DNA of 34,853 nt from Lewinellaceae bacterium (lineage in GTDB: Bacteria; Bacteroidota; Bacteroidia; Chitinophagales; Saprospiraceae): NCBI GenBank assembly GCA_947459655.1, contig CANHEE010000019.1:1-34853 (forward strand). Reading direction: 5' to 3'. This document shows, piece by piece, positions 11,894 through 33,100 of the stretch. A program made the position numbers and the translations under genes. The number at the start of each line of letters is the position of its first letter. Within the stretch, counting starts at the first letter, position 1. The notes under the pieces were generated by a model. The model had not been told where the DNA came from and made no database searches. It was given only the letters and a program-made list of their open reading frames with translations.

Positions 11894-14800
11894 CTACTGC
11901 AAATCTTCAAATTTTCCGTTGTTTGATTCCCAGTCAATAGAATCATAAGCATCCACAGACCCATCCAGGTTGTAATCTGAATTGTAATTGTAGTCGTCAA
12001 ACAGTCCGTTAAAGGTCTCCCAGATAATCGTATCATTAGCATCAACAGAGCCGTCTGAATTGGCGTCTCCGGAATTCATGACGTACAAGGTTGAAGAACC
12101 ATTTGCCAATGACAATGGAAACAACCCGTAGACAGGAACCGAACCATTGCTGAAATCAAGTATAGTCGTAGTGGAACCCATCTGAATTGTACTCTCAGTT
12201 CTGAATCCGAGGTGATTTCTGTGTCTGATGGCAACGTAATAATTTCCAGGAGTCAAACCTGCAAAAGTCACCGGACTCTGTCCGTCAACATCAACTACAT
12301 CGCCATCTGCCTGCAGCAGCGCTGAAACCGTGCGAACAACACTTGTCGCGCCGGACATACCCTGTCTTAGTTCAACAAAAACCCAATCGACAATCGCGTT
12401 GTTACCGGTTTGCGAAAGCACAGCAGTGCTGGTTGTTGAAGCCGCAGCCGGAGGCACGTGAACGTAAATCGAATTGAATGCTGGCACAGAATAAGGGTCA
12501 CTCAATGGAAAATTAGGAAAAGCATTGATAGGATTGGTAAAGTAGTTGCCCATTAGACCGTTACCGTTTGCATTGCCCAATAAAACCCGTGCGGCGAGCT
12601 TTGGCTCAGAAAGATAATTTACCGAAAGGCAAAATGTACCTGTACTTCCCGAACTACCGTTCACCAAAATATAGTATTCTCCTGTCGTACTGAGGTTGAC
12701 GTTTATCGTATTGCTGTTACCCGGAGTGCCATTACATCCTGGAGTACAGGACAAAACTATTGATGAAGAGGGAATATTACAAGGATCAGGAAATGTGAGC
12801 AGCATTATCTGCGCTGACAACAAATTTGTTCCGGTGGCAGGATTGGAAACTGTCAATGCATATTGACCCGAATTCGCTGCCGTAAATTTATACCAAACAC
12901 TTCGACCTGTGCTTCCACAAGTACCGGAACCGGAAGGATCAAACTGGCTCACACTGGCAGCAATATTGCTACCGCAAACGGCAGGAGCATTGACATTCAG
13001 TGAAATTGCACCACAGGGCTCATCTTGAGCAGCAAAAGTCATAAAATCCACTGGTCCGACCCAATCAGAATAAACAGAGCCAGCACTACAAACCGCTCGT
13101 ACCCAAACCTCATATTGACTTCCGGCAAGCAGGCCTCCTGCCTGCAAAATAGTTTGTGTTATACCCGGATTTGATAAAGGCGAAACAGGCGCTAAGCCGC
13201 TTTTAGGCTGGATATGGACATCCCACATACTCTCTTGGCATCCTGCATTCCAGTTTAATTGAGCACTGTTTCCGGTCACGGAGGTAACTACAAGTGCAGT
13301 AGGTTTTGCACATAGCGGTGGCTGCGAAATACTGATAATATAATCCTCCGTTTCCCCCCCATCAACCAACCCGCAGGCATCTATTTGGGTACCAATTGTA
13401 CCTGAAGAACACCTGATCCGCATTGTATGCACGCCCGGCACCGGGTTACATGGTATGCCAAGTAAAAAGTCAAAAGGAGTACCTGCAACGCCGGTAATAC
13501 CACTACCCGTTGCAGTAGCAGTGGTGGCTGCAATGCGCTCTGACAATTCAAAAATTCCATTGTCATTGTAATCAATCCAAGCAGCAAAATGAACAGATTT
13601 GGCATCAGGCCAAATTTTACAGGTGTAACTTTTACCGGCCTCCAGTACTGTGGTCAGTACAACATTTCCCCGAAAATCGGAATATCCTGCGCCGCAGCTG
13701 TTTCCGGTATTATTATCAAGGGTACTCAACTGGACTCTGGCTATGACATCGCCATTGCTGCAACCAGATGTACTTTGTGGATTGCAATACGAAACCCAGT
13801 CTCCCGTCTTGAAACTATGCTCAGAACAATTCAGCGCATCGCCATTGGCATTGTATGCGACTACATTCCAGTAATATGTACTGTTTGAATTCAAATATGT
13901 GCTAACGGTATATGAGGTTACGCTCAGATCCGCCACCAGATTCACCTGCGGACTGCCGATCTGATAGGCTCCCGCAGATCCGGAAAGATAAATACGGTAA
14001 CCAACTGCATTTTGAACCGGCGACCAGGAGAAAGTCACGTTTCTCACTATGTTCACTGACTTGTCAGTAGGGGTATTTTTAGATGCACAGGATGGAGGCA
14101 GCAACGGATCGGTTGTAAATGAATTTACCGGACAACCGGTGGCATCTCCTGCAGCATTGGAGGCAACTACCTTCCACAAATATGTGGTTCCGTTGAGCAG
14201 AAATGGCACATAGCTAAGTTGTGTTTTATCGACAATATCGGTAGGCGAACCAGGCAAACTGGTACCGAAGTATACTTTGTAGCTGGAAACTGCTCCACCC
14301 GTCACCGGTGCAGACCAGCTGATTGCTGCAGAATTGCTGACCATGGTTGCCATGTCCGTTGGTGATATCAAAGTAGGACATGCCGGTGGTGCTAAATCAG
14401 TGGTAAACGTTAAAGGGCCACTCCATGCGGAATATTGTGCCCCTGGATTACAAACGGACCTCACCCAAACGTCGTAGGCTTTATTGTCTTGCAATCCTGT
14501 AATGGTAAATGGCCGTGAATTGGCGACAAAAGACGGTACCGCATTTAATCCGGGCGCATTTTGTCCCGACTCCTGGACGAAAATTTGCCACTGTGAGTTG
14601 TTACATCCCGCCGTCCAGTCGATGCTGCGTGCTGACCATGATGGTGAAGCAACGTTCTGGTTTAGGTTTATCGGTTCAGAACAGATTGCAGGCGCACTTA
14701 TAGTGATGAGATAATCTTCTATTTCTCCAAATGTCGTACTGGCACAGGGTAAAATAGCTGAGCCTACGGTATTGAACATGCACCTGACCCTCATGGTATG

Positions 14801-17557
14801 TATTCCAACTGGAGGATTACAGGGAATACTGAGCGGAAAAATGGCAGAGCCACCCGCAAGTCCGGGTGTACCACTTCCGGTGATAATCGATGTAGTATAT
14901 CCGATTCTTTCTGTTGCATTATCAAATACGCCATCGTCATTAAAATCAATCCAAGCGGCATAATTGTTGGCATAGACTCCTGCAGAAACAATACAATCGT
15001 ACGTAATTCCTGCCATCAAAGTAGTCGTCAACAGCGGATTGGATCTGTAATCTGAATAGCCACCATAGTTAATACAGTTTCCAACAGAACACCCCAAAGG
15101 AATCTGAGAAGGACAATCGGTTCCGGAAAAGTTGTCCAATGTATTCAGCTGAACACGAGCAACCACATCTCCCTCCGTGCATCCATACGTACTTTGCGGG
15201 ACACAATAAGATATCTGTGAGCCAGTGGTAAACTGAAATTCATTACAGGAAGTAGCTGAACTATAGTTGTTCTTCGAAACAACCGTCCAATAATAGGTTT
15301 GATTACTCTGAAGTACTGTAGATGATGCGAATGAATTTGTGGTTACACTAGCTACAAAGTTCTGAACTGGATTTGCCGGATTATATGCAGGACTTGTTGT
15401 TGATAAATATAGATTGTAACCATCAGCCCCTCCGGCTGGCGTATTCCACATAAATACCGGATTTCGTGTCACCCCTGTCAACAGAGATACAGGAGAAGTC
15501 AATTGTGGACAATTGGGAGTGGCAGCTGTGAAGGTTCTTTGTGTACAAGAAAGTGCGTATCCAAAATTGTTTTTTGCCACTACAGTCCAGTAATAGATCC
15601 CATTTGATGGAATATTGTATTGATAAGACAAAGAAGTCAAAGAGGCTACCCTATTCAATGTCGGGTTTTGTGCATTATAAGCCGGTGAACTTCCCGAAAC
15701 ATACAATTCGTAGCTGGTTGCATTGTTTACGGCAGTCCAGCTGAAAGTGGGACTCACATTGAGTATGGCACCATTGGCGGGATTACTTAGGGATACGCAA
15801 TTGGGTACCGTCGCCAACTCCGCGTATGTATAGCTGGCAGCCAGTGAGGTTCCCGCAATATTTCCAGTTGTTTGAACAAAGGCCACTGAGTAGGCTCCAG
15901 AAGTCGCAGCAGAATAAATAGTCGAGCCTCCAGTTTGTGCATATATACCATTAGACAATGGTGCAGTAACGATGACATTGATTGCAGTTATTGGTGCAGC
16001 ACCCAATCTTACCTTTAGTCCGGTGCCAGGGATGCCATTTGCACCAATTATTGATACATCCCACCTTTTGGCGGGCAAAACCGATACTCCGGATGCCGGT
16101 GTTCCCGGATTAACATCAAATGCTTCAGCTTGAATGGTAGTAGCACTGCCCGGGGCTGTTGCTATTCCGGTGAAAGAAATCGGGTTAAATGATCCGGCAC
16201 CAACAGGAAAACCAAGTACAAAAGTAGAGTTGTTGAAATTGGTACCTATAGTAATTTGTAACGGCCCTTTGACATAAGCATCATTGTCGCCATTGGTACC
16301 ACTGGTAACATCTGTTGACAAGGTCGAGGTACCTACACCGGTTCCAGCGCTACCAACGATTCTTAGTCTATTGCCAGAAGTGCTGTTGACGACTCCCTGA
16401 TATGAACCGGAAATGGAAATCCAACCCAATGAGCCGACATTTAACGGACAATCCAGCACAACCCCTGTAGGGTGACTATTGGCGATATTCAGGGTCGCTA
16501 TCTGAAGATTGGCTACAGCTGTGGCTGCACTTTTAATCGTTCCATTATTACTGATGGTTTGTGTAGTTGTAGACATTGCATTTCCGGACACGGATCCCGG
16601 ATTTGTATATGCGAGATTTAAAGTTGCAACTGTTAAAATGGCGCCTGAACTTACACTAATATTTCCAGCAACACACAATGTAGAAAATCTTCCTTCTCCG
16701 GACAACACGGTAAGGTCACCATTAATTGCGGGTGTATACAAATGTGTTGAAAAGCGGTTTGTAGCTGAACTGACCGCATTGAATACTACTGATCCCAGCC
16801 GAAGATAGCCTGAGTTCTGCCATAAATTCGTCCTGAAACCATTAATGCTACCCCCATTTTGAACACTGACCCCATCTCCAAATCTAATCTGGTGATTTTG
16901 CGGCAGATTGTAATGGTTTACGTTGTTGTAATAAATACAATCCTGTACCCCGGAACTTGTTGAATTATTTCCCTGCGGATCTGGAAAAGTCCATGAACCG
17001 CCGGTAATGTTGATTGGGGTAGCCGAATTCAGCCCAAGCAGCGCTCTCAGAGGATTTGTCGCTGAACCAATCGTTCCACTATTGCCGTCAATGTAAAGAT
17101 CTCCGCCACTTTGATTAAAAGCAGCAGAGCCCGAAAAGGACACAGAACCCTTTATCCTGATGGTGCCACCGTTCATGTTGAGCGTTCCACTGCTGTTTAC
17201 GTCTAACGTGGCCTGATTACCGGTAATTCTTTCAATGAACAAGGTACTGGAATGGATGGTAAGGGTCCCTGCAACAACCAATTGCCTGACTGCAACGTCG
17301 CCACTTAATACCATAGAGGAGCCAGCAAGTATTGTAAAATTATCTGTATTACCAATTACTGCTGGGGGATTAACACTGCTGCTTCCACTTACATCCGTGG
17401 TCCAGCTGAGCGGATTATTAAAATTACTTGCACCGGCAAGTGAATAATAGCTAACCTGCGCTTTTACTGTGGATGCCACTGCAAACAGTAGGAAAGCAGC
17501 AAGGTTAAAATGGAAATAACCACCAATTGGAAAATACTTTTTCATATTTTCATTCAT
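11894..17557 (-). CDS. Giant secreted FN3/GEVED-domain protein with C-terminal dockerin-like EF-hand pair (paralogue A, 1887 aa)
   Basis: A signal peptide (to about residue 34; MKKYF at residue 5 is an alternative start) leads into a Gly/Ser/Thr/Asn-rich region to about 580 that looks like beta-helix repeats (TLNMNGGTIRIKGSVSFSG type). Then follow two FN3-like domains (about 586-780), a GEVED domain (about 783-949; YAAWIDFNDDGVFDN, GEIEDYLITI), three FN3-like domains, a second GEVED domain (about 1256-1409), another FN3, a PPC-like beta domain (about 1512-1645) and a conserved region with NNAIVDWVFVELRQG and AIRHRNHLGFRT that recurs in Bacteroidota 'hemagglutinin' proteins. The C terminus has two 12-residue calcium-loop motifs, DANSDGSVDAND (1831-1842) and DYNLDGSVDAYD (1861-1872). 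No T9SS type A or B tail is recognisable. Adhesion or scaffold function is inferred. Confidence 0.88.
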   Translation of the reverse strand: MNENMKKYFPIGGYFHFNLAAFLLFAVASTVKAQVSYYSLAGASNFNNPLSWTTDVSGSSSVNPPAVIGNTDNFTILAGSSMVLSGDVAVRQLVVAGTLTIHSSTLFIERITGNQATLDVNSSGTLNMNGGTIRIKGSVSFSGSAAFNQSGGDLYIDGNSGTIGSATNPLRALLGLNSATPINITGGSWTFPDPQGNNSTSSGVQDCIYYNNVNHYNLPQNHQIRFGDGVSVQNGGSINGFRTNLWQNSGYLRLGSVVFNAVSSATNRFSTHLYTPAINGDLTVLSGEGRFSTLCVAGNISVSSGAILTVATLNLAYTNPGSVSGNAMSTTTQTISNNGTIKSAATAVANLQIATLNIANSHPTGVVLDCPLNVGSLGWISISGSYQGVVNSTSGNRLRIVGSAGTGVGTSTLSTDVTSGTNGDNDAYVKGPLQITIGTNFNNSTFVLGFPVGAGSFNPISFTGIATAPGSATTIQAEAFDVNPGTPASGVSVLPAKRWDVSIIGANGIPGTGLKVRLGAAPITAINVIVTAPLSNGIYAQTGGSTIYSAATSGAYSVAFVQTTGNIAGTSLAASYTYAELATVPNCVSLSNPANGAILNVSPTFSWTAVNNATSYELYVSGSSPAYNAQNPTLNRVASLTSLSYQYNIPSNGIYYWTVVAKNNFGYALSCTQRTFTAATPNCPQLTSPVSLLTGVTRNPVFMWNTPAGGADGYNLYLSTTSPAYNPANPVQNFVASVTTNSFASSTVLQSNQTYYWTVVSKNNYSSATSCNEFQFTTGSQISYCVPQSTYGCTEGDVVARVQLNTLDNFSGTDCPSQIPLGCSVGNCINYGGYSDYRSNPLLTTTLMAGITYDCIVSAGVYANNYAAWIDFNDDGVFDNATERIGYTTSIITGSGTPGLAGGSAIFPLSIPCNPPVGIHTMRVRCMFNTVGSAILPCASTTFGEIEDYLITISAPAICSEPINLNQNVASPSWSARSIDWTAGCNNSQWQIFVQESGQNAPGLNAVPSFVANSRPFTITGLQDNKAYDVWVRSVCNPGAQYSAWSGPLTFTTDLAPPACPTLISPTDMATMVSNSAAISWSAPVTGGAVSSYKVYFGTSLPGSPTDIVDKTQLSYVPFLLNGTTYLWKVVASNAAGDATGCPVNSFTTDPLLPPSCASKNTPTDKSVNIVRNVTFSWSPVQNAVGYRIYLSGSAGAYQIGSPQVNLVADLSVTSYTVSTYLNSNSTYYWNVVAYNANGDALNCSEHSFKTGDWVSYCNPQSTSGCSNGDVIARVQLSTLDNNTGNSCGAGYSDFRGNVVLTTVLEAGKSYTCKIWPDAKSVHFAAWIDYNDNGIFELSERIAATTATATGSGITGVAGTPFDFLLGIPCNPVPGVHTMRIRCSSGTIGTQIDACGLVDGGETEDYIISISQPPLCAKPTALVVTSVTGNSAQLNWNAGCQESMWDVHIQPKSGLAPVSPLSNPGITQTILQAGGLLAGSQYEVWVRAVCSAGSVYSDWVGPVDFMTFAAQDEPCGAISLNVNAPAVCGSNIAASVSQFDPSGSGTCGSTGRSVWYKFTAANSGQYALTVSNPATGTNLLSAQIMLLTFPDPCNIPSSSIVLSCTPGCNGTPGNSNTINVNLSTTGEYYILVNGSSGSTGTFCLSVNYLSEPKLAARVLLGNANGNGLMGNYFTNPINAFPNFPLSDPYSVPAFNSIYVHVPPAAASTTSTAVLSQTGNNAIVDWVFVELRQGMSGATSVVRTVSALLQADGDVVDVDGQSPVTFAGLTPGNYYVAIRHRNHLGFRTESTIQMGSTTTILDFSNGSVPVYGLFPLSLANGSSTLYVMNSGDANSDGSVDANDTIIWETFNGLFDDYNYNSDYNLDGSVDAYDSIDWESNNGKFEDLQ

Positions 17558-17731
17558 TCAAAATTTATTCCGCAATTACCCAAATCCAACTTTTCATCAG
17601 TTGTGTAATGAAATTGTAGCCTCATTCGAAAGTACTGTTTATCACCATCTGATTTTAATGTAAAGATATGAACACCTAAGTTAAATATTGATAAAATCAT
17701 AATGTTTTAAAGGTATTCTGCAAACAAGAAT

Positions 17732-17769
17732 AAAAAAAACCCACAGCCTTTAAATCAAAGCTGTGGGTT
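17732..17769 (-). terminator. Terminator of the 369-aa T9SS protein gene
   Basis: AACCCACAGC (17738-17747) and GCTGTGGGTT (17760-17769) form a 10-bp stem. On the minus strand the stem runs straight into a run of eight T residues, so this is a strong rho-independent terminator directed leftward. It separates the gene from paralogue A. Confidence 0.88.
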
Positions 17770-17800
17770 CGGTAGTTAAATCGCTTAGTAATCAGAAAAA

Positions 17801-18910
17801 TTATTGCTTAACAATTTTTTCAACTGATTGGTGATCACTTCCCTGTAATACGAGGTAATACGTACCCATCGGTAGTTCGCTGATGTCTACGATAGCATTG
17901 TTGTTTCCTTTAACAGCATCTATGCTGAGTGCTTTCACTACACGTCCCAACGCATCAGAGACCTGTATGCTATAGGCACCGTTTTGTGTTGCTTCATAAT
18001 TGATGCGCATCTGACCAGTTGTAGGATTTGGAGAAACTTCAACAATTCCAAATTTGCTCTCTCTACGGTCAACAGAAATTACTGCAGAGTAGGTAACACT
18101 GTTGTCAAGATCATAAGATGCCAGACGATAGAAACCACGAGAAATCGGAGATTTATCATCTGCAGTGTAGCTCATCAATTGATTGGTATTACCCGCTGCT
18201 TTAATATTGTCGCTCACTCTGCGAAATCCATTGACACCATCAATAGAACGCTCAAGAATAAAATGACTGGCATTCTTCTGAGAAGCAAGCTCCCAACGGA
18301 AAGTATTGACCGGGCCATTGGCTTTTCCAGTGAATGACTTAAATTCCACAGGCAGCGGTGCAAGATCGGGCGTAGAGGTATACGTGAGCGTACATCCAGC
18401 AGGACAACCGGTTGTTTGAGTAGATGTTACGATTGCGAGCCTTGGATTGGTATAAGTTGCCGGATTTCTCCACTGAAGTTTGTTAGCAGGGTCAGTCAAT
18501 CCAGCCAGATTAGTGATATTCCACTCGATGGTTAAAATATTAAATCCAAGGGATGCAACATCAGGAACAGCTTTACCAGCCTGACCTGATGGCAATGTAA
18601 TGTTATAACTCATTACACCAGTAGTTAGGTTTGAACCGGTAGTAGTTGGCGCTCCGTAACTAAAGCCTGAACCTGTCAGATTGTTGACAGCAATAATAGG
18701 AGTAGAAAGACAACTGACCGGATAATTAAAACGAAGGTTCATATTTCCCAACTGCCATGTATTGTTACCGCTGGTTGAGGCAATATTAAGTGTAACCCGA
18801 TACTTCATCGTAGCGGTATTAACATCCGCATTGCTAAAATTCATCTGACAGGACTGCGCAAACGCTCCAAAACCTGACAATAAAAACAAAAAGAATAAAA
18901 TTTTTCTCAT
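17801..18910 (-). CDS. T9SS type A secreted protein with N-terminal cohesin-like beta-sandwich region (369 aa)
   Basis: The start is taken at 18910 because it opens a clear signal peptide (MRKILFFLFLLSGFGAFAQ); the longer frame to 18979 only adds residues upstream. Residues about 20-190 are a beta-rich domain (YRVTLNIAS, WQLGNMNLRFNY, VMSYNITLPSG, LGFNILTIEWNIT) resembling the cohesin-like domains often found at the front of Bacteroidota surface proteins; this placement is tentative. The middle segment (LPVEFKSFTGKANGPVNTFRWELASQKNASHFILERSIDG and so on) is the common spacer preceding T9SS tails. The end (VEVSPNPTTGQMRINYEA to MGTYYLVLQGSDHQSVEKIVKQ) is a type A sorting domain, so the protein should be exported by the Por system and attached or released at the surface. 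It lies between two giant dockerin-bearing paralogues, all on the same strand, each with its own terminator. Confidence 0.85.
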   Translation of the reverse strand: MRKILFFLFLLSGFGAFAQSCQMNFSNADVNTATMKYRVTLNIASTSGNNTWQLGNMNLRFNYPVSCLSTPIIAVNNLTGSGFSYGAPTTTGSNLTTGVMSYNITLPSGQAGKAVPDVASLGFNILTIEWNITNLAGLTDPANKLQWRNPATYTNPRLAIVTSTQTTGCPAGCTLTYTSTPDLAPLPVEFKSFTGKANGPVNTFRWELASQKNASHFILERSIDGVNGFRRVSDNIKAAGNTNQLMSYTADDKSPISRGFYRLASYDLDNSVTYSAVISVDRRESKFGIVEVSPNPTTGQMRINYEATQNGAYSIQVSDALGRVVKALSIDAVKGNNNAIVDISELPMGTYYLVLQGSDHQSVEKIVKQ

Positions 18911-18979
18911 CGTAGATATTTTATTATTAAGATAATACACAATTAACGTATAAAATTTGGCTTTTGTTCCGTGTGGCAA

Positions 18980-19014
18980 AAAATTAACTACCGGATAAAC
19001 AGTGGTTTATCCGG
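18980..19014 (-). terminator. Terminator of the 1883-aa surface protein gene
   Basis: A perfect 10-bp inverted repeat, CCGGATAAAC (18991-19000) and GTTTATCCGG (19005-19014), has a 4-base loop. On the minus strand it is followed by TAGTTAATTTTTT. It lies between the stop of the 1883-aa gene and the start of the 369-aa gene, so these are probably separate or only partly linked transcripts. Confidence 0.8.
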
Positions 19015-19037
19015 CAGTCAATCAAAATCAATCAATA

Positions 19038-22000
19038 TTAATCCAATTCTTCGTATTTACCATTGTTTCTCTCCCACTCTATGGTATCAATAGCATCCAC
19101 AGAACCATCGAGGTTGTAGTCAGAATTGTAGTAGTAGTTGTCAAACAAACCATTATAAGTTTCCCAAACAACTGTATCAGTAGCATCCACAGAACCATCA
19201 GAGTTGGCATCTCCGGCATTCATCACCCACAAGGTGGTAGAACCTGAAGCATTCGTAACAGGGAATGAACCGTACAACAAGGTAGAACCATCGGTGAAAT
19301 TCAAAGGTGCCGTAGTCGGACTCACCGGCACATCAGCGTCTGTTCTGAAACCAAGGTGATTGCGGTGACGTACTGTTACAAAATAGTTGCCAGGTGTCAA
19401 ACCTGGAAATCCAAGTGGACTAACACCATCCATATCAACAATGTCACCATCTGCTTGTAGAAGTCCTGCAGCTGTACGCACAACAGTAGTTGCGCCGGAA
19501 GTTCCCTGACGAAGCTGAACAAACACCCAGTCAACGATTGCATTGTTACCAGTTTGAGCCAACACTGCCGGAGTTGTTGCCGCAGCAGGTCCACCCGGAA
19601 CATGTACAAATGTTGAGTTAAATTGTGCTGTAGCATATGGATCCGTAACTGGGAAGTTAGGGAAAGAGTTGGCAGGGTCAGTAAAGTAATTTGGCATAAT
19701 ACCCGTAGCAGAAGCATTACCCAACAATACTTTAGCGTTGACTACAGGAGGTGCGATATAATCTACATTTATACAGAATTTACCAAAACTTCCCGAAACG
19801 CCATCGATATAGACATAGTATTCACCAGGCTGTAGGTTGTTCACTACAATTGTACTCACGTTACCAGCGGTACCATTACAACCCACAGTACATGCTACAA
19901 CATCTGTAAATGTAGGTGCTCCGCAGGCATTGGAAACCTGTAATAACATTATCCATGAATACAATAGTGGAGTACCAGTTGTTGGGTTGGAGGTAACAAT
20001 ACGGTACTCACCCGCTGTAACTGCAGTAAACTTATACCAAACAGTATTATTTGCGGCACTACAGTTTCCGATACCCGCAGGTTCGTTGGCACCTGCCGTT
20101 GCTGGTGTATTGTCGCTACAAACAGGTGGAGCGTTAAGTACAAGCTGAACTGCACCACAAGGCTCGTCTTCTTCAAGTAATGTTGAGAAAGTAAATGGAC
20201 CTACCCAGTCACTCGTTACACCTGGAGAACAAATTGCCCGAACCCATACTTCATACTGAGTACTACCTGTTAATCCCGTAAAGGATACATTGGTGACAGT
20301 AACACCTGGATTAGAGATGGTTGTTGTTGGTGTAATACCACTCGCAGGCTGGATATGAACATCCCACTCGTTTTCAAGACAACCCGCAGCCCATGTGAAA
20401 TCAGCACTACTCTTGGTTACATTGCTGATCACTTGAGATTTAGGCTGAGGACATGGAGGTGGAGGAGCAACTGTTATCGCGTAATCTTCTGTCTCACTAT
20501 AGTAAATTGGAGCACATGGGTCAATATTGATACCAGCAGTACCATAACCACATCTTACGCGCATAGAGTGAACACCCACAGGCGGATTACATGGCAGACT
20601 CAACGGGAATGTAACCGGATTACCCAAAACACCATAAGTACCTGATCCAATAGCTGAGGTTGTGGTATAACCAAGTCTCTCGCTCGTTTCAAAGATTCCA
20701 TTATCATTGAAGTCAATCCATGCAGCGTAATCCTCTGTCCAGCGGTCTGGCCAGATCTTACACTGATAAGTGGTACCTGCATTTAATGTAGTTGTCAGCG
20801 TTGGGTTGTTTCTGAAATCGTGATAGCCCAAAGTTCCTGAAGGACAGCTGTTGTTGGTGGTATTATCCAAAGTGTTCAACTGAACACGTCCGATAACGTC
20901 ACTATCCGTACATCCCGCAGTCGTCTGAGGTGCACAATAAGCAACCAAAACTCCTGTTTCAAATGAATTCTCTGTACAACCTACTGCATCTCCCTTCACA
21001 TTGTAAGGTATTACAACCCAGTAGAACATTGTATTGGAAGCCAATCCTGTAGTCACCGTGTAACTTGTCGTCGTTACATCAGCAATCAGATTAGCCGTTG
21101 GAGCCAACGGGCTGTATGCGCCCGGAGTAGTGGACAAGTATACCTTGTATCCCGCAGCGCCAGAATTTGACGTCCAAGTAAATGTAGGGTTCTTCACTAC
21201 GCCAATGGAAGCATTTGCAGGGAAAGTCATCGAAACGCAAGGCGGAGCTGTAAGTGTATCTGTAGTATAAGTAAATGTAGGACAACCAGTCGCATCACCG
21301 GTAGAGTTGGATGCAATTACCTGCCATACATAAGTAGTGGAGTACGTTGTAACAGGACCATAACTGAAAACTGTACTTCCTACCGTAGCTGTTGGTGTAG
21401 CGGGAAGGCTTACATCTGTGTAGATTTTATAATTGGCTACCGCACCACCTGTAGTTGGTGCAGCCCATGTTAGCGGAGTACCTACCGGAACGGCAGTAGC
21501 CATATCCAAAGGAGTCAGCAAGGTAGGACAATCCGGAGGAGCTACCGGAGTGGTAAAGGTAACCGGACCTACCCAGTCGGAGTATACACCTGCACCACAA
21601 ACAGCTCTAACCCAAACTTCCTGTGCGGTGTTGTTTGGAAGACCAGTTGCCGTGTAAGGTTTGGCTGTAACACCAGGGTGTGTTGGAATCGAAGAAGTAT
21701 CAGGAGGTGTAGAACCAGCCGTCTGAACAAGAATGTCCCATTCGGTCTCAACACAACCTGTGTTCCAGTTGAAAGTTCTACTGGACCATGATGGAGTTGA
21801 AACTGCCTCAGTCAAGGCAGAGGGCTGAGGACACGGAGGCGGGGGAGCCACAGTAACGACATAATCCTCAACCTCACCGTAAGAGTTATTACCACAAGGA
21901 GTTATGCTACTACCTGATGTTGCGTACATAGCTCGTACCCTAAGCGTGTATGTGCCCGGTACAGGATTACATGGAAGTGAAAGTGGGAACGTGGCAGAGC

Positions 22001-24689
22001 CTCCCAAGACCCCAACCTGTCCACTACCTGCAGGAGAAGTCGTGGTATAGCCAAGACGCTCAGTAGCGTTGTCAAAAACACCATCGCTGTTGAAGTCAAT
22101 CCATGCTGCATATCCCTCAGAGTATTGACCAGCCCAAACCTTACACTGGTAGGTTGTACCAGCGTTCAAGGTAGTTGTAAGTGCTGGGTTTGATCTGTAA
22201 TCTGAATAACCCCCAAAATTAGTACAATTTGAAGTGTTACAACCCAGGGGTGAAGATGATGGACATCCTGTTCCAGAGTTATTGTCGAGGGTATTCAACT
22301 GCACACGGGCGATAACGTCACCATCAACACAACCATAAGTTGTTGTTGGCACGCAATAACCGAGCAGTGTACCTGTAGTAAACTGACCTTCAGCACAGCC
22401 AGTTGCCGAACTGAATGTATTTTTTGCCACAACTACCCAGTAATACAACTGGTTTGCAGGCAATAAAGTTGGATAGGTATAAGAAGTACCCGCCTGGTTC
22501 ACAACCAAATTATTAGCAGGATTCGCAGGGTCAAAAGCCGGACTTGTTGTTGAAAGATACAAATCGTAACCGGTAGCACCACCCGTTGGAGCTGTCCATG
22601 TAAAAGTTGGATTTCTCACCACATTCGTAGCAGCTGCTGATGGAGCAGTCAAAGTAGGACAACCCGGTGCAGAAGCTACAAATGAACTCTCTGTACATCC
22701 GCTTGCAGAGCCATAAAGATTCTTTGCTACTACTGCCCAGTAGTAAGTACCTGCTGCGGAAATGTTGTAAATGTATGACAGCGTTGTTACATTCGTCACC
22801 AGGTTACTCGCCGGATTGGCCGGATCGTAAGCAGGAGATGTCGTTGAAACATAGATGTCATAGCTGGAAGCACCAGTACCAGCCGACCAAGTTAGTGTTG
22901 GGTTCACTGTCACTGTGGCTCCGACTGCAGGAGCGGTAGGTGCGGCACATGACGGTGGAGCTGTGCTATCACCGAACGAGTAGCTGCCTGCCAGATTCAA
23001 AGCAGTGATATTTGACGATGTTGCAATAGATGAAACATTGTAAGTCGCTGAAGGGCTTCCTGTAAATGTTGCAGAACCACCAACAGCGGCGTAACTTCCA
23101 CCTGCAGTTGAAGATCCCAAAACGAGATTGGAACCACTTACGGCAACATCACTCAATCTCACTCTGAAACCACCTGCATTGAAACTATTCGTTCCCAGTA
23201 TGGACAAATCCCAACGCTTGGATGGAAGTGGACCGATACCAGAAGCAGGAGTTCCGCTGTTGGAGTCAAAAGCCTCTACCCTGATGGTTGTAGCAAGCGA
23301 TGGCGCACCGGTGATTCCGGTTAGTGAAAAAGGATTGAAACTGGAAGCTCCTACAGGAAAACCAGTGATATTCGCTGAAGAACTATAGCCTGTACCAAAC
23401 GTGATTTCAAGCGGACCCCTCACGAAAGCATCATTATCTCCGGTAGAGCCGGAAGTGGTCACAGTACTTAATGTAGAGGCCGTGATACCTGTACCGGCAG
23501 AACCTACAACCCTCAAACGATTGGTTGCAGTAGTATTGAGGATACCCTGCGGATTGCCCGGTGATGTAGACCATGTAAGTGATCCAACATTTAGTGGACA
23601 ATTTAGCGTAATACCCGCAGCGTTGTTGTTTGCAATGAACAAGTTGGTAATATTTAAGTTAGCAACTGCAGTTGCTGCACTTTTAATGGTACCATTGTTT
23701 GTGATGGTCTGTGCATTACCAGAAAAAGCGTTACCTGTTGAAGTACCGACATTCGTTGCAGCCAGGTATAGCGTACCTACCGTGAGAATAGCACCAGAGT
23801 TAACATTAATGTTACCTGCAACATAAGCAGTAGTGAACCTACATTCGCCTGACAGGACTGTTAAATCACCATTTATTGCGGGTGTGTAAGCATGAGTGGA
23901 ATGGCGGTTGGTAGCTGAATTCACACCATTAACGACCATACTTCCCAAACGAAGATAACCTGAGCTCCACCACAAATTGGTTCTGAAACCATTTGTTGTT
24001 CCACCATTGCTGGTAGATACACCATCTCCAAAATTGAGTACGTGGGCGGCAGGCAAATTGTAACTTATGCTGTTATTGTAAAAAACACACTCACCTACAC
24101 CGCCGGCTGTGGATGTATTTCCTTGTGGATCGGGAAATGTCCACGAACCGCCAGTGATGTTGATTGGGGTACTTGAAGCCAAACCGAGCAATGCTCTGGT
24201 TGGATTGGTACCTGCTCCTGTCGTTCCGCTGTTGCCATCGATGTATAGCTCTCCTCCACTCTGTATAAAGGAAGAAGTACCATTGAACCATACGGAACCT
24301 TTTACCCTTATGGCACCACCTGAGAGGTTAAGGGATCCGGAACCATTCATGTCCATGGTAGCCTGGTTGCCTGTAGCCCTCTCAACATAAAGTATGTTGG
24401 CACCGACACTCAGAGACCCTGACACAGACAATTGGCGTACCGTTGCATCGGCATTCAACGTCATGGCAGATCCTGATAGAATGATAAAGTTGTCCGCATT
24501 GCTCAAAGCTGCGGGAGGAGCCACACTGGTCGCTCCGGTTGCGTCAGTAGTCCAGCTCGCCGGACTAGCAAAGTCTGTTGCTCCACTAAGGGAATAGTAA
24601 TTAACCTGCGCATTCGTTATCGTAGCGAAGCACGCAGCCAATACAAACAACAGCATTTTAGGGAAAAATCTTCTCATGCTGGAAGTCAT
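19038..24689 (-). CDS. Giant secreted FN3/GEVED-domain protein with C-terminal dockerin-like EF-hand pair (paralogue B, 1883 aa)
   Basis: This is a full-length paralogue of the 1887-aa protein, co-linear in every domain: signal peptide (MRRFFPKMLLFVLAACFATITNAQ from residue 5), Gly/Thr/Asn-rich beta-helix-like region, two FN3-like domains, GEVED (about 776-940, YAAWIDFNSDGVFDN, GEVEDYVVTV), three FN3-like domains, second GEVED (from about 1250, YAAWIDFNDNGIFET), FN3, PPC-like domain (DEPCGAVQLVLNAPPVC), the NNAIVDWVFVQLRQG/VRHRNHLGFRTD region, and a C-terminal pair of calcium-loop motifs, DANSDGSVDATD (1827-1838) and DYNLDGSVDAID (1857-1868). As in its sister there is no recognisable T9SS tail. 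The two may bind related ligands or partners; that is inference. The upstream 831 bases hold a candidate promoter and a leader hairpin. Confidence 0.88.
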   Translation of the reverse strand: MTSSMRRFFPKMLLFVLAACFATITNAQVNYYSLSGATDFASPASWTTDATGATSVAPPAALSNADNFIILSGSAMTLNADATVRQLSVSGSLSVGANILYVERATGNQATMDMNGSGSLNLSGGAIRVKGSVWFNGTSSFIQSGGELYIDGNSGTTGAGTNPTRALLGLASSTPINITGGSWTFPDPQGNTSTAGGVGECVFYNNSISYNLPAAHVLNFGDGVSTSNGGTTNGFRTNLWWSSGYLRLGSMVVNGVNSATNRHSTHAYTPAINGDLTVLSGECRFTTAYVAGNINVNSGAILTVGTLYLAATNVGTSTGNAFSGNAQTITNNGTIKSAATAVANLNITNLFIANNNAAGITLNCPLNVGSLTWSTSPGNPQGILNTTATNRLRVVGSAGTGITASTLSTVTTSGSTGDNDAFVRGPLEITFGTGYSSSANITGFPVGASSFNPFSLTGITGAPSLATTIRVEAFDSNSGTPASGIGPLPSKRWDLSILGTNSFNAGGFRVRLSDVAVSGSNLVLGSSTAGGSYAAVGGSATFTGSPSATYNVSSIATSSNITALNLAGSYSFGDSTAPPSCAAPTAPAVGATVTVNPTLTWSAGTGASSYDIYVSTTSPAYDPANPASNLVTNVTTLSYIYNISAAGTYYWAVVAKNLYGSASGCTESSFVASAPGCPTLTAPSAAATNVVRNPTFTWTAPTGGATGYDLYLSTTSPAFDPANPANNLVVNQAGTSYTYPTLLPANQLYYWVVVAKNTFSSATGCAEGQFTTGTLLGYCVPTTTYGCVDGDVIARVQLNTLDNNSGTGCPSSSPLGCNTSNCTNFGGYSDYRSNPALTTTLNAGTTYQCKVWAGQYSEGYAAWIDFNSDGVFDNATERLGYTTTSPAGSGQVGVLGGSATFPLSLPCNPVPGTYTLRVRAMYATSGSSITPCGNNSYGEVEDYVVTVAPPPPCPQPSALTEAVSTPSWSSRTFNWNTGCVETEWDILVQTAGSTPPDTSSIPTHPGVTAKPYTATGLPNNTAQEVWVRAVCGAGVYSDWVGPVTFTTPVAPPDCPTLLTPLDMATAVPVGTPLTWAAPTTGGAVANYKIYTDVSLPATPTATVGSTVFSYGPVTTYSTTYVWQVIASNSTGDATGCPTFTYTTDTLTAPPCVSMTFPANASIGVVKNPTFTWTSNSGAAGYKVYLSTTPGAYSPLAPTANLIADVTTTSYTVTTGLASNTMFYWVVIPYNVKGDAVGCTENSFETGVLVAYCAPQTTAGCTDSDVIGRVQLNTLDNTTNNSCPSGTLGYHDFRNNPTLTTTLNAGTTYQCKIWPDRWTEDYAAWIDFNDNGIFETSERLGYTTTSAIGSGTYGVLGNPVTFPLSLPCNPPVGVHSMRVRCGYGTAGINIDPCAPIYYSETEDYAITVAPPPPCPQPKSQVISNVTKSSADFTWAAGCLENEWDVHIQPASGITPTTTISNPGVTVTNVSFTGLTGSTQYEVWVRAICSPGVTSDWVGPFTFSTLLEEDEPCGAVQLVLNAPPVCSDNTPATAGANEPAGIGNCSAANNTVWYKFTAVTAGEYRIVTSNPTTGTPLLYSWIMLLQVSNACGAPTFTDVVACTVGCNGTAGNVSTIVVNNLQPGEYYVYIDGVSGSFGKFCINVDYIAPPVVNAKVLLGNASATGIMPNYFTDPANSFPNFPVTDPYATAQFNSTFVHVPGGPAAATTPAVLAQTGNNAIVDWVFVQLRQGTSGATTVVRTAAGLLQADGDIVDMDGVSPLGFPGLTPGNYFVTVRHRNHLGFRTDADVPVSPTTAPLNFTDGSTLLYGSFPVTNASGSTTLWVMNAGDANSDGSVDATDTVVWETYNGLFDNYYYNSDYNLDGSVDAIDTIEWERNNGKYEELD

Positions 24690-27179: not shown

Positions 27180-30100
27180 TTATCGTAGTATCTGTATGTA
27201 ACCCGCTTTGGCCTCTCCTCTGCCGTCATCATACAGGTAGTAGTATGTGCCGTCAGGTAGATTCCTTCCCTCCCAAGTTCCGTTCCAGTCGTTTTTGTAA
27301 CCTTCCTTGAAGTATACCTGGTTTCCGTATCTATTGAAAATGCTGAGCTTATTGTTGCTTTGATCAGCTGCACCCTCTATCACAAATGTATCATTGACAC
27401 CATCTCCGTTTGGCGAGAAACCTGTGTAAACCTTGATACCGCTACACTGGACTTTAATCAGCACTGGTGCTTCATCGCAACCTTCTTTAGTACAAATCTT
27501 ATAGACAAACTCTTCATCCTCATTGTCATCACAAAAATCGGCTGCAGGTGTAAATACAACCTTATTTTCCGGATTTACGAAAACAAATGCATTCTTAGGT
27601 TGCTTCACAATTCTGATTTCGGAGATGTTTGCTGAGCCAAGTTTGTCGTTTGACAGCACATCCAATATCATGACATCTCCCTGATTCATCTTCGCGCGGT
27701 CTTCGATGGCATCCGGTCCTTTGGCGTTTTTATCAACTACTGTAATTTCAAAGAAGGTCGTATCACGAACGCCATGCTCATCTGTAATTACAAATGCCGC
27801 TTTGTCCGTTCCACCTGCGTTTACACCCAGACACGTAATACAACTTGAGCCAGGTATAGTGCCGAACCGAGCATGCGTACCGGATTGTGTAGGCCAAATG
27901 TTTTCAATTGAGGCAAAGCTACCCAACAATTCAGCAAGATCGAGACATACCGTATCCTTCTGATTCAACTGTATCGTCTCAATGACATACTTTGCACTGG
28001 TGCAGGTAACTTTAGCTGTTAGGGTATCTTTGCAACCATTGGTACTGGTGAAGATAAGCACGTGAATACCATTAGTAAGGGTCAGACCAGTACCATTGCC
28101 ACAACTGGAAACAGAACCACTGTATGGGGCCCCATTATCCGAAATACTGTAACTACTGATGTCTGCAAAAGGCAAATCAGGAATACACAACCTTGAAGCG
28201 ACTCCACATGGACCAAAGACATTCTGAACCGTAGCACTAATGAAAGATGTGCATACCGGTGGCAATGGTTTGCATGTCACTGTTACCTTTATCGAATCCT
28301 GGCAACCATCCTTTGAAGTAGCCACAAGATGGTGGACGCCTTGGCTAAGTTCAATACCCAAAGTTCTCGCCGTTGCCTGAAGATCAGGATTTGACGTTTG
28401 AGCAAAATTTGGATATACTTTTGACCTGATTTCAATACTGCCGTAAGACACACCATTTCGTCCTCCATATATTTTACCTGACTGACTGATTTTCCAACCA
28501 CCAAGAGGATCAAATCCATTCATGAGCGCAAGCAAATCTGCCAGGGTATTAAATTCACCAGTAAGCACCTGTCCACCAACAGACCAGTTTTTCAACACAT
28601 AGTTTCCAGAACCAGGGATTAGTGTAAAACTGTAGTAGTAGACAGTATCAAATTTGCAACCTTTGAAGCTGCTGGTCAGCACTATTCCATTATCTGTAAC
28701 AGTAATTGCACCGGAAGTAAGGTCGGATGGCTTGATTTGGCTGCAAACCAATGCCTTTCCATTTGGACAATCATTGATTTCCACTGTAACATCGCTGACA
28801 TCAAATACATTTACGGACTGCTTTTCTCCGACAGTAAAGCTGAATTTTGCAGTACAGTTCGGATTTGCTTTTCTGCTGATCATTACACGGTAATCACCGG
28901 ATGTAAGACCATTTGCCCTGGTCTTATCACCGTTGGCTGTGCTCCATACATAAACGTAATCATCAACCACTCCGTCCTTCATTCCAAATTCAATGGATCC
29001 TACAGCGATTCCACCGCATCCCGCCGGAACGATAACTGTTGAGACGATTTCAGGTACCACGCAAGGGCACTCAGAACCAATATTGATGGAAATTACCTTT
29101 GACGCACACTGGTCGCTTACCGTAACCTGGTACTGTCCCGCTGTCAGATTATTTCTTTCAGAGCCGACAAATCCATCGTTCCAGGTGTAGGTGAAACTTG
29201 CAGGACTAAGTTTGGCTGTACCATTTTTTCCTCCGCACAATTCATCTGAAGTGATGACATCGATGGATGCCTGCAGGTCGGTAGACTTAAGCCTTGTGAC
29301 TGTGTAGACAGAAGTTGCGACATTGCCGCAATCATCGGTAGCTGTGTAGGTGTATGCGGTTATTTCAGCACAATTGGTTTCGGTCTTGATTGAACTTACT
29401 GTCAGCTGAACATCTGCATCACAGTTGTCAACAGCCTTCACGTTAAATTGTGGCTCTGTTTCTCCCGGATTGAGCGTAACATCGGCATGAACACCGATGA
29501 TGACTGGTTTTTGGTTGTCTGTAAATATTATCAGTTGTGTTTTTAAAGAGCTGTTTCCACAGTCATCGGTTGCTGTCCAGCTGCGCACCACTGATCCCGG
29601 AAGAACACATCCTGTCGAGGCGTAAGGTAACTCAGTGTATGTAACTGAAACATCTTTTGTACAGTTGTCTTTTGCAGATACCTGCGCAACCGGTGGCAGC
29701 GTAGCCTTACAATCAAGTGTGATATTGTCAGGAACACCACTGATGACCGGAGCCTTGGTATCTTTTGCAATTACAGTGAACTCATATACAGCTGTATTTC
29801 CACATTTATCTGTAGCAGTCCATCTGCAGGTGATGGTCAATACATAACCATCCTTTTTACAGTCACCTATTTTAGCGCCATATTCGTCAAATCTGACCTG
29901 AGGATTTTTATCACAATCATCTGTTACGATGACGTCGTTTTCGGTCATAACTACCAACTGGTCACACTCAATGGTAATGGTGCTACCGCTCGGCACACCA
30001 GCGAGCATCGGACTCTTAGGTACAATCACAGGACTTGAAAGATCCTTAACAGTTATGGTCATTGAGCGCGTTGAACTGTTTCCGCATTTATCGGTTGCAG

Positions 30101-33100
30101 TCCATGTTCTGACGACCAGATACTGACAGGAGTTAGGGTCTCCAATTACACTATCCTGCATACTAACCTGAGGGTTTTTGTCACAGATATCAGTTACTGT
30201 CACAACAGGTGGTGTCAGCGGATCTGAGCAATTGGTTGTAAAGTCAGTAGGTATTCCGCTGATTACAGGAGCCGTGGTGTCGTGAACTGTTATCGTTTTA
30301 ACTTTTATGGTTTCGTTACCACATTTGTCAGTAGCAATCCACTCTCTGACAATTTTGAAGTTGCAATCATCACCGAAGCTGGATTCTCTAAATTGTAGTT
30401 TGGGATTGGGATCACAGTTGTCTGTTACACTGGCCGGAGTGTCCGGAACGGGCTGACCACAATCAAGTACGAGACTTGTTGTATTCACGTTAATAACAGG
30501 TGCCTCTGTATCAATTATCAAGATTGACTGAATAGCAGTGCTTACATTTCCACAGGCATCCGTAGCAGTCCATGTACGAACCACAGTACCCACACAGCCT
30601 CCGTCAGTGCTAAAGTTATCCTGGTAGGTAAGCACAGGGTCTTTGTCGCAATTATCAGTTACTCCAGGACGAACGGAGTCGTCAGGTGTAACACCGCAAT
30701 TTACCGTCGCTGACTGAGGCACGTTGCTGATTACCGGTGCTGTTTTGTCTTCGATGGTTATGGTCTGTGTGGCAGAGCTAACGTTTCCGCAGTGATCTGT
30801 CGCAGTCCAAACCCTGGTAATGAGCCGATTTGCAGAACATTGTCCTGAAGCGATTGTCTCCGTATACACCACTTGTACATTTTTGTCGCAGTTATCAGTT
30901 ACCGTTGGTGAAGCAAACTGTGGAACAGCCTGATCACACTCAAGCGTGATATTGCCTGGTACGTTTGATATCACAGGTGCCTGAGTATCTATAACCTTCA
31001 GGGTAAATTCATAAATAGATGTATTTCCGCACTTGTCTGTTGCTGTCCAGCGGCAATTCAACAAGAACAGATATCCGTCTACCGGGCAATTTCCTTTTCT
31101 CAGACCATATTCATCAAAACGAACTACCGGATTTTTATCACAATCGTCCGTGACGATAACATCATTCTCATCCATCACCTGAACCTGATTGCACTCAACT
31201 GTAAGTGTTCCTCCATTTGGAATACCAGCCAACATTGGATTTTTAGGAGTAATAACCGGGGCAGTAACATCTTTAACCGTTATGGTCATTGATTGGCTTG
31301 TGCTGTTACCACATTTATCGGTCGCCGTCCACGTACGGATTATTTTGTATTCGCATGCAGTGGAGTCCCCGATAATAACGCTATGTATACTTACTTGCGG
31401 GTTTTTATCGCAGATATCAGTTGCTGTCACAACAGGCGGTGTTAGCGGATCGGTACAACTCGCAGTGAAATCTGAAGGTATGCCACTGATTTCAGGAGCG
31501 GTTTTGTCATGAACCGTGATTGTTTTTACTTTTATACTTTCGTTGCCGCATTTGTCAGTAGCGGTCCACTCTCTGACAATTTTGTAGTCACAGTCGTCTC
31601 CAAATCTTGTTTCTCTGAATTTAAGCACAGGACTCTGGTCGCAGTTATCGGTAACGCTTACAGGCGTATCCGGAATTGGCTGGCCGCAATCAAGAACGAC
31701 ACTGCTGGTATTGACATCAATAACCGGCGCCTGATTGTCGATGATCAGGATGGTTTGCGTAGCAGTGCTTGCATTACCACAAGCATCCGTAGCCGTCCAC
31801 GTACGTACCACAGTGCCTAGGCAACCCCCACTTCCGCTGATGGCATCCACATAGGATAGCACTGGGTTTTTATCGCAGTTATCAAATACATAAGGGCGAA
31901 CGGTATCATCCGGAGTTTCACCGCAATTGACCGTCGCTGCTTGTGGCACATTTGTTATAACAGGTGCAATATTGTCCTCTATTGTTATCTTCTGAGTGGC
32001 AGTACTAACATTACCGCAGTGATCTGTCGCGGTCCATCTTCTGGTAATTTCAAGATTACCATCACACTTGCCATTGACGATGTTTTCAGAGTACAGGACA
32101 CCAATATTTTTATCGCAGTTGTCGCTGACTTTCGGCGAGATGACCGGTGGCATTACCTGCCCACAATCTATCGTAATACTGGCCGGAACATCAGTAAATA
32201 CTGGAGCCTGCGTATCTATAACTTTTAATGTAAATTCATAAACCGACGTATTTCCGCACTTGTCTGTTGCAGTCCAACGGCAGTTCAGCAGAAACAGGTA
32301 ACCATCTACCGGACAATTTCCTTCTTTAACACCGTACTCGTCAAAAACAACTGTTGGCTTTGAGTCGCAGTCGTCAGAAACGACGACATCTCTTTCATCC
32401 ATTACAACGGGCTGATTGCACTCTACGGTAAGGGTGTCTCCATTTTCAATTCCGGCAAGTATAGGATTTAATGGTGTAATACGCGGACCTTTGGTATCTT
32501 TTACGGTGATTACCTGCGTTTTTGACCCTATATTTCCACAGTTATCAGTTGCTGTCCAAGTACGCAGCACCTGGTATTCACATGAATTCACATCTCCCTG
32601 AATACTTTGACTGTAGCCCAGAACAGCTCCGTTACCGCAAGCATCGATGGCTGTTGGATTGGCCGTCGGTGGTAGTGCATCAGAACACTCAATTGTCACA
32701 TCAGCAGGTACACCACTAATTAGAGGTGCGGTTTCATCCTTCACTAGAATCACCTGAAGTTTTGTTGTTACATTACCGCATTTATCAGTAGCAGTCCACG
32801 AACGGATCAGCTTGTAAAGGCATCCAGACCCCAATTTATCTTCAGAGAAGGTCAGTTTTGGATTGTTGTCACAATCATCTGAGGCTACTACTGACGGGTA
32901 TGGTATTACATCTGAACAATCATATGATGCATCCGCAGGTACACCACTGATTACCGGTGCTTTGTGGTCGCCCTCAACAATAATTTGTTGAGTCAGTACC
33001 GACTGGTTACCGCAAGCATCCATCGCAGTCCATGTGCGAATTATGCCGTAGCCACTGCAATTGTCTCCCGCGGTTTTCTGCTGATCAAACATAATCATAA

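Follow-up and report, generated by a model that had tools for sequence, protein, structure and literature searches.

Three genes in head-to-tail order

The window, by which we mean the whole analysed stretch of 34,853 nucleotides, holds three minus-strand genes in head-to-tail order, namely a first giant gene, the small gene P0002 and a second giant gene. The genes and the parts of P0002 are as follows:

19038-24689, minus strand: giant 1 (P0003), an open frame of 1883 aa (ORF listing, Pfam, NCBIfam)
17801-18910, minus strand: middle gene P0002, 369 aa from the likely ATG, the proposed anchor or receptor
18351-18856, minus strand: N-domain of P0002, 168 residues, cohesin-like but unproved (profile, low-confidence model)
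17804-18037, minus strand: T9SS type A sorting domain of P0002 (TIGR04183, ORF residues 315-392)
11894-17557, minus strand: giant 2 (P0001), an open frame of 1887 aa, paralogue of giant 1

The two giants are 57% identical over 1891 alignment columns. Giant 1 starts with what appears by eye to be a signal peptide, followed by an N-terminal part without assignment, fn3, two GEVED stretches and a C-terminal module that we call XDoc-like (X module plus dockerin, see below); fn3 and GEVED domains were found by Pfam in both giants. Here and throughout, signal peptides were judged by eye, as were those T9SS ends for which no Pfam, NCBIfam or profile result is given. The first-pass annotation, made from the letters of the sequence, had described the giants as lacking a T9SS tail, and indeed no T9SS tail model in Pfam or NCBIfam, TIGR04183 included, matched P0001 or P0003 at E ≤ 1.

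P0002, on the other hand, has such a tail. Its open frame spans 17801-18979 on the minus strand, with the likely start at the ATG at 18910, and is laid out as a cohesin-like N-domain, a middle stretch and a T9SS type A tail. The tail, likewise proposed for the middle gene in the first-pass annotation, is borne out by scores above the cut-offs for both TIGR04183 (46.4 bits, cut-off 23) and PF18962 (46.5 bits, cut-off 27). Proteins with a type A tail are exported by the T9SS and fixed to the surface. Elsewhere in the window, judging by eye, a HYR-like repeat protein of 2546 or more residues runs up to the window edge (27180-34853, minus strand) and has a T9SS type B-like tail at its end, and what looks like a secreted CotH-like protein (3647-5953, plus strand) has a T9SS type A-like end.

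A recurrent C-terminal module with two calcium loops

The modules and loops at the ends of the two giants are located at:

19041-19742, minus strand: XDoc-like module of giant 1, last 234 residues (AF2 model, fold search)
19176-19211, minus strand: calcium loop 1 of giant 1, dockerin-like, DANSDGSVDATD (motif search)
19086-19121, minus strand: calcium loop 2 of giant 1, dockerin-like, DYNLDGSVDAID (motif search)
11897-12598, minus strand: XDoc-like module of giant 2, last 234 residues (profile match)
12032-12067, minus strand: calcium loop 1 of giant 2, DANSDGSVDAND (motif search)
11942-11977, minus strand: calcium loop 2 of giant 2, DYNLDGSVDAYD (motif search)

The motif D-x-N-x-D-G-S-V-D-x-x-D has exactly four matches in all six frames of the window, and all four are the loops listed here, which confirms the paired loops originally seen at the ends of both giants. 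A type I dockerin is defined by two calcium loops, D-x-[ND]-x-D-G-x-V-x-x-x-D, each followed by a helix. Both loops are present in the tail of giant 1, as are, in the predicted model described below, the two helices (model residues 187-196 and 219-226). Many of the more distant members of the tail family carry an insertion in each loop (DGxVxYxGPxND-like, by eye) with the repeat kept.

The loop repeat goes beyond chance, because one and the same module of about 230 residues stands at the end of 20 proteins in this genome. Searching with the last 234 residues of giant 1, we found 20 full or nearly full copies (both window tails counted) and one more partial match in this genome, the copy being C-terminal in 20 of 20 proteins. 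Among 78 related loci there were 113 good tail matches: 103 lay within 100 residues of the stop, 2 were cut by a contig end, and 8 were counted as internal, more than 100 residues from the stop, at least one of which (L132) looks C-terminal. In an even sample of the phylum, the tail was found in 52 of 395 genomes, three of them (G092, G116, G196) with weak matches alone; the survey scored at most seven tail candidates per genome, and per-genome numbers are thus lower bounds.

No Pfam or NCBIfam model reached its cut-off over the tail module in the two copies of the window. Dockerin_1 (PF00404) was the best Pfam hint for the tail of giant 1, with 18.0 bits (E = 0.0033) against a curated cut-off of 22.9, and giant 2 gave no Dockerin_1 match at E ≤ 1. 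Across 83 tails, 11 matched Dockerin_1 at E ≤ 1 (best E = 3.5e-4). As the curated cut-off was missed, we rejected a classification of the tail among ordinary type I dockerins. A search of the tail profile against PDB by sequence returned six weak matches, none from a cellulosome protein.

The tail is predicted to fold as a whole X-module-dockerin dyad

AlphaFold2 modelled the tail of giant 1 with pLDDT 88.3 and pTM 0.89 from an alignment of 83 rows (both window tails plus 81 of 100 listed related tails) and without templates. When this model was searched with Foldseek, ranks 1-8 were all cellulosome entries (E 3.0e-5 to 3.1e-3), and the top ten rows (E 3.0e-5 to 2.0e-2) were chains from eight cellulosome entries, described in their titles as X-dockerin, type II cohesin-dockerin or multimodular scaffoldin complexes. 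Re-alignment by VIA placed eight type II XDoc entries at Z 9.8-10.7 over 141-146 residues, with the next entry at 4.6. By both methods, the model has the fold of the whole X-module-dockerin dyad. The other VIA rows (transthyretin-like, CnaB and others) had Z < 5, and we took them to reflect the generic X part. Judged from the model, the likeness covers the entire XDoc dyad, beyond the two loops alone, and the best explanation for the tail of approximately 230 residues would be a divergent XDoc dyad in which a beta domain is packed against a two-loop dockerin. The dockerin-like tails put forward in the first-pass annotation are thus supported by AF2, Foldseek and VIA, with the refinement that an X module belongs to them.

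A different view of the tail is that it is a third T9SS C-terminal sorting domain, beside types A and B, and that the gene downstream of it (see below) is merely a co-regulated surface protein. Such a domain would be expected where T9SS tails are, at the C-terminus, which is the place that the tail occupies. It would also fit the distribution of the tail, which in our sample occurs only in genomes with T9SS type A matches: TIGR04183 matched in 309 of the 395 sampled genomes, and all 52 tail-positive genomes are among them (by eye). However, the predicted fold is that of an XDoc dyad with two calcium loops, whereas the T9SS C-terminal domain of mirolase (8qb1) aligned to the tail by VIA at only Z 3.6. 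The tails counted as internal (8 of 113, with the caveat of L132) also argue against a sorting role. We return to this view with the data on gene order.

A cohesin-like domain at the front of P0002

The N-domain of P0002 had been described as a beta-sandwich and as a possible cohesin. The beta-sandwich stands as a feature of a low-confidence model only, as structure prediction of the N-domain was poor (pLDDT 42.2, pTM 0.39). With this low-confidence model as query, Foldseek returned cohesin or cohesin-complex chains at ranks 1-6, 8 and 9 (best E = 0.0075). In VIA, the first 19 rows were cohesin-bearing chains with Z 6.4-7.1, values that are below 8 and tied with that of a non-cohesin, an integrin, which followed at 6.3.

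Sequence comparison gave a mixed picture. P0002 itself had no Pfam match to PF00963, while the PF00963 model matched 2 of 14 P0002-type domains of the same genome at E ≤ 1 (best E = 0.022), and a PF00963 scan of the genome gave weak matches at P0002-type places (E = 0.094 on C57 and 0.154 on C45). The P0002 profile had seven matches in PDB by sequence, none of them a cohesin. Nine stretches of this genome that are of PF00963 type were aligned with the P0002-type family by hhalign, which gave a probability of 0.3 on the percent scale, hence no support. The cohesin assignment is thus favoured by the best matches of the poor model and by the sub-threshold Pfam matches of the paralogues, and disfavoured by hhalign. 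Given the poor model, the hhalign value and the lack of a Pfam match, we did not accept P0002 as a proven cohesin, and regard its N-domain as probably a cohesin, albeit an unproved one. In a scan of viral contigs, no relatives of P0002 were found.

Putative receptors, scaffolds and cargo in the same genome

The first-pass annotation had pictured a system of three genes without a glycoside hydrolase; the system is larger than that, and putative enzymes belong to it. In addition to the 20 tails, the genome has at least 17 P0002-type domains, distributed as follows:

P0002: 1 domain
small T9SS-tailed protein on C41: 1 domain
181-residue protein on C50: 1 domain
C9: 1 domain
C68: 1 domain
C160: 2 domains
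C57: at least 4 domains
C45: at least 4 domains, in a protein with a T9SS-like end
C108: 1 domain, within a tail protein
C166: 1 domain, within a tail protein

Single-domain P0002-type proteins with a T9SS tail are two in number (P0002 and the one on C41), and two proteins (C45 and C57) have at least four P0002-type domains each; the ends of the C9, C57, C68 and C160 proteins fall outside the stretches or contigs covered. The multi-domain proteins on C45, C57 and C160 could be shared scaffolds, and the C108 and C166 proteins, which combine a P0002-type domain with a tail, could be adaptors. Together with the single pairs seen in other genomes (see below), the many tails and multi-domain proteins here suggest that one-to-one anchoring has been expanded to scaffolds in this genome.

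The cargo of the tails is varied. The Pfam families among the 20 tail proteins, which overlap, include GEVED (4), Ig_7 (3), SprB (3) and fn3 (3), with YHYH in one protein and no Pfam family at all in some; nine of the 20 were covered only in part, with the 5' end cut, so that cargo is under-counted. Three tail proteins are putative enzymes: one M36 fungalysin peptidase, one BD-FAE esterase and one alpha-amylase-like protein, the last with partial matches over the Pfam cut-offs. A cellulosome combines a multi-cohesin scaffoldin with dockerin-bearing enzymes that attack plant cell walls; at E ≤ 0.001, the 20 tail proteins (nine of them partial) matched 25 Pfam families, none of which is a cellulase family. 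The statement that no glycoside hydrolase is present therefore holds for the three genes of the window by Pfam, but not for the tail family, given the alpha-amylase-like member.

The genome also has cohesins recognised by Pfam, with 13 PF00963 places at E ≤ 1, of which 8 are over the cut-off, and it might be asked whether the tails dock onto these, specifically onto the PF00963-type cohesins of C8 and C134, instead of onto P0002-type domains. The cohesins there are plausible receptors in that they sit in proteins with T9SS-like ends (by eye). We nevertheless consider this very unlikely: no tail match was found on C8 or C134, the PF00963 matches on C16, C23, C24, C67 and C86 share an open frame with a classical Dockerin_1 match of their own, and the domain found after tails in other genomes is of P0002 type (the PF00963 comparison being confined to the own genome). 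P0002-type domains remain our preferred candidates for the receptors of the tails.

As separate observations on the PF00963 proteins, the T9SS-like ends on C8 and C134 (L182, L183, L184) are by eye mostly type B-like, and the cohesin genes there adjoin PorP/SprF-like genes (names given by eye). On C13, C16, C23, C24, C67, C86, C97 and C103, classical Dockerin_1 matches fall in proteins in which a cohesin-like stretch and, by eye, an end resembling T9SS type A come after the dockerin in one chain, an architecture that differs from that of the giants.

A T9SS-tailed gene recurs downstream of tail genes

We compared the genes downstream of tail genes with control genes from the same loci. The related loci gave 37 complete non-tail genes downstream of a tail gene on the same strand and at most 600 bp away; next genes that were cut at the end, were themselves tail genes or lay more than 600 bp away had been dropped. 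PF18962 was found in 21 of these 37, compared with 4 of 37 control downstream genes (Fisher p = 5e-5), the controls being a random 37 from those of 230 with at least 150 residues, while the tail neighbours were not filtered by length. The T9SS-tailed neighbours have 275-482 residues, apart from one of 856. In a second set of 60 tail matches (tails of other genomes from the top of the survey list, with G365:C207 and G014:C12:256612 passed over), 49 had a codirectional next gene within 300 bp, among them 3 that are tail genes themselves and 6 truncated by the stretch end, and PF18962 was found in 22 of the 49 (p = 8e-4 against the same 4 of 37 controls). The one control set was used repeatedly, and the Fisher values, like the hypergeometric value below, ignore kinship between genomes.

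The P0002 N-domain itself shows the same association. A profile built from five sequences of the own genome, and therefore narrow, matched in 6 of 395 genomes, all six of them tail-positive (hypergeometric p = 3e-5 without the own genome). Each of the five other genomes has at least one match that directly follows a tail in the same orientation (G249 C1, G190 C23 and C7, G132 C1, G014 C63, G294 C1). Adding sequences recruited from the related loci widened the profile, which then matched 14 of the 49 neighbours at E 4e-5 or better. From these recurrent neighbours in related genomes we conclude that the order of a tail gene followed by a P0002-type gene is a recurring unit. The check suggested in the first-pass annotation, whether the genes co-occur in relatives, lends support to the pairing, since the tail and a downstream T9SS-tailed gene are found together in many other genomes.

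The order is recurring but not universal. A home-made T9SS profile identified a codirectional type A neighbour within 300 bp for 18 of 105 tail genes in the related loci and a type A neighbour for 4 of 20 in the own genome; as this profile also labelled an ORF cut at a region end (L073), we prefer the Pfam counts given above. For 42 of the 105, there was no codirectional neighbour within 300 bp. In the own genome, a P0002-type gene lies directly downstream of 3 of 20 tail genes (C19, C50, C160), the partner on C50 (181 aa) has by eye no T9SS tail, and giant 2 has no P0002-type gene of its own directly downstream. The evidence from tails that lack a partner is accordingly mixed: 46 of the 52 tail-positive genomes have no match to the narrow P0002 profile and 17 of the 20 own tail genes no P0002-type gene directly downstream, and yet the pairing recurs elsewhere.

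These unpaired genes, and the fact that binding by the tail is something we infer, could be taken to mean that the calcium loops merely stiffen the C-terminus of proteins that have no docking partner. We give this hardly any credence, since VIA scores for the complete XDoc arrangement are far higher with a known binding dyad than with other folds, and stiffening would not call for the recurrent T9SS-tailed gene downstream. The same recurrence bears on the view of the tail as a sorting domain. In L071, the tail follows a P0002-type domain that elsewhere, as in P0002, bears a T9SS tail, which speaks for that view; the downstream T9SS-tailed gene, however, is left without explanation, and we judge a third sorting domain to be unlikely. 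Docking of the tail onto a partner remains the reading that we prefer.

Two further kinds of protein end were seen at these loci. Partner-type proteins in L126 (14468-16003), L133 (10741-13539) and L268 (3780-6305, with three P0002-type domains) share a CCPxxLCxPFxxKK-like C-terminus that is not T9SS type A, and the end of a protein in L245 (2895-3800) is similar; this C-terminus is possibly a further anchoring or sorting end. Of the 49 next genes, 12 encode proteins of 400-459 residues with a similar end like VELSRAVVKLQLLR (L234, L242, L244, L247-L250, L258, L261-L263, L265). They start at most 40 bp after the stop of the tail gene or overlap it, and the home-made profile found no T9SS type A tail in any of the 12.

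Discussion

Our analysis points to a probable docking system in which XDoc-like tails bind T9SS-anchored cohesin-like receptors, probably with the help of calcium. P0002-type proteins would be exported and fixed on the outer face of the cell through the T9SS, the N-domain of P0002 would act as a cohesin-type receptor, and the XDoc-like tails would bind such domains in a calcium-dependent manner. The giants, which lack a T9SS tail, would be held and displayed at the surface by docking of their tails, and the putative tail-bearing enzymes would be displayed likewise.

Docking at the surface would address attachment, and not how tail proteins devoid of a T9SS tail pass the outer membrane. As a signal peptide seems to be present in these proteins and a T9SS tail absent, we also considered docking in the periplasm, ahead of export or in the course of it. 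Tail proteins might bind their P0002-type partner there, and the T9SS tail of the partner might then carry both across the outer membrane together, an idea to which we assign a rather low probability. Just as tentatively, one sorting signal would then suffice for the secretion and the anchoring of numerous giants and enzymes that lack a T9SS tail of their own.

If docking as proposed here takes place, it would constitute a widespread non-cellulosomal route for surface attachment in T9SS-bearing bacteria, and would give a role to secreted giants that have no T9SS tail. Docking partners would be predictable from gene order, a tail gene being followed by its anchor gene, and there would be a natural gradation from one-to-one anchors (the single pairs elsewhere) to scaffolds (the multi-domain proteins here). 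The same pairing in related bacteria points to an overlooked mode of attaching proteins to cells.

Of the working systems known, the one that comes nearest is the pair of type II cohesin and XDoc through which cellulosomes are attached to clostridial cells, and we take PDB entries 2b59, 4u3s and 5g5d to be examples of this anchoring. The system described here shares with it a C-terminal XDoc-like dyad with two calcium loops on a large protein, a proposed receptor on a surface-anchored protein, and multi-receptor proteins in the genome. It differs from the clostridial cellulosome in that the tail sequence lies below the cut-off of the dockerin model, anchoring relies on a T9SS type A tail in a host from the Bacteroidota, the cargo is varied (adhesion-type domains and a putative peptidase, esterase and amylase), and the receptor is only cohesin-like, according to a low-confidence model. 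Compared with T9SS type A cargo (TIGR04183/PF18962), P0002 has the tail and the giants do not.

The titles, abstract openings and the parts of PMC8542988 and PMC6030884 that we consulted contain no description of XDoc-like tails in Bacteroidota. The nearest published proposal that we found, as far as the consulted parts of the paper go, concerns Candidatus Stygibacter (Cloacimonadota), for which a cellulosome-like complex is described with a cohesin scaffold that has a conserved C-terminal surface-attachment domain (PMC8542988). That organism belongs to a different phylum, its domains were found by InterProScan, its scaffold also has carbohydrate-binding domains, and those parts of the paper describe no pairing of tail and partner genes (PMC8542988). 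By score, the tail and P0002 fall outside PF00404 and PF00963, and we propose that the two work like a pair of that kind.
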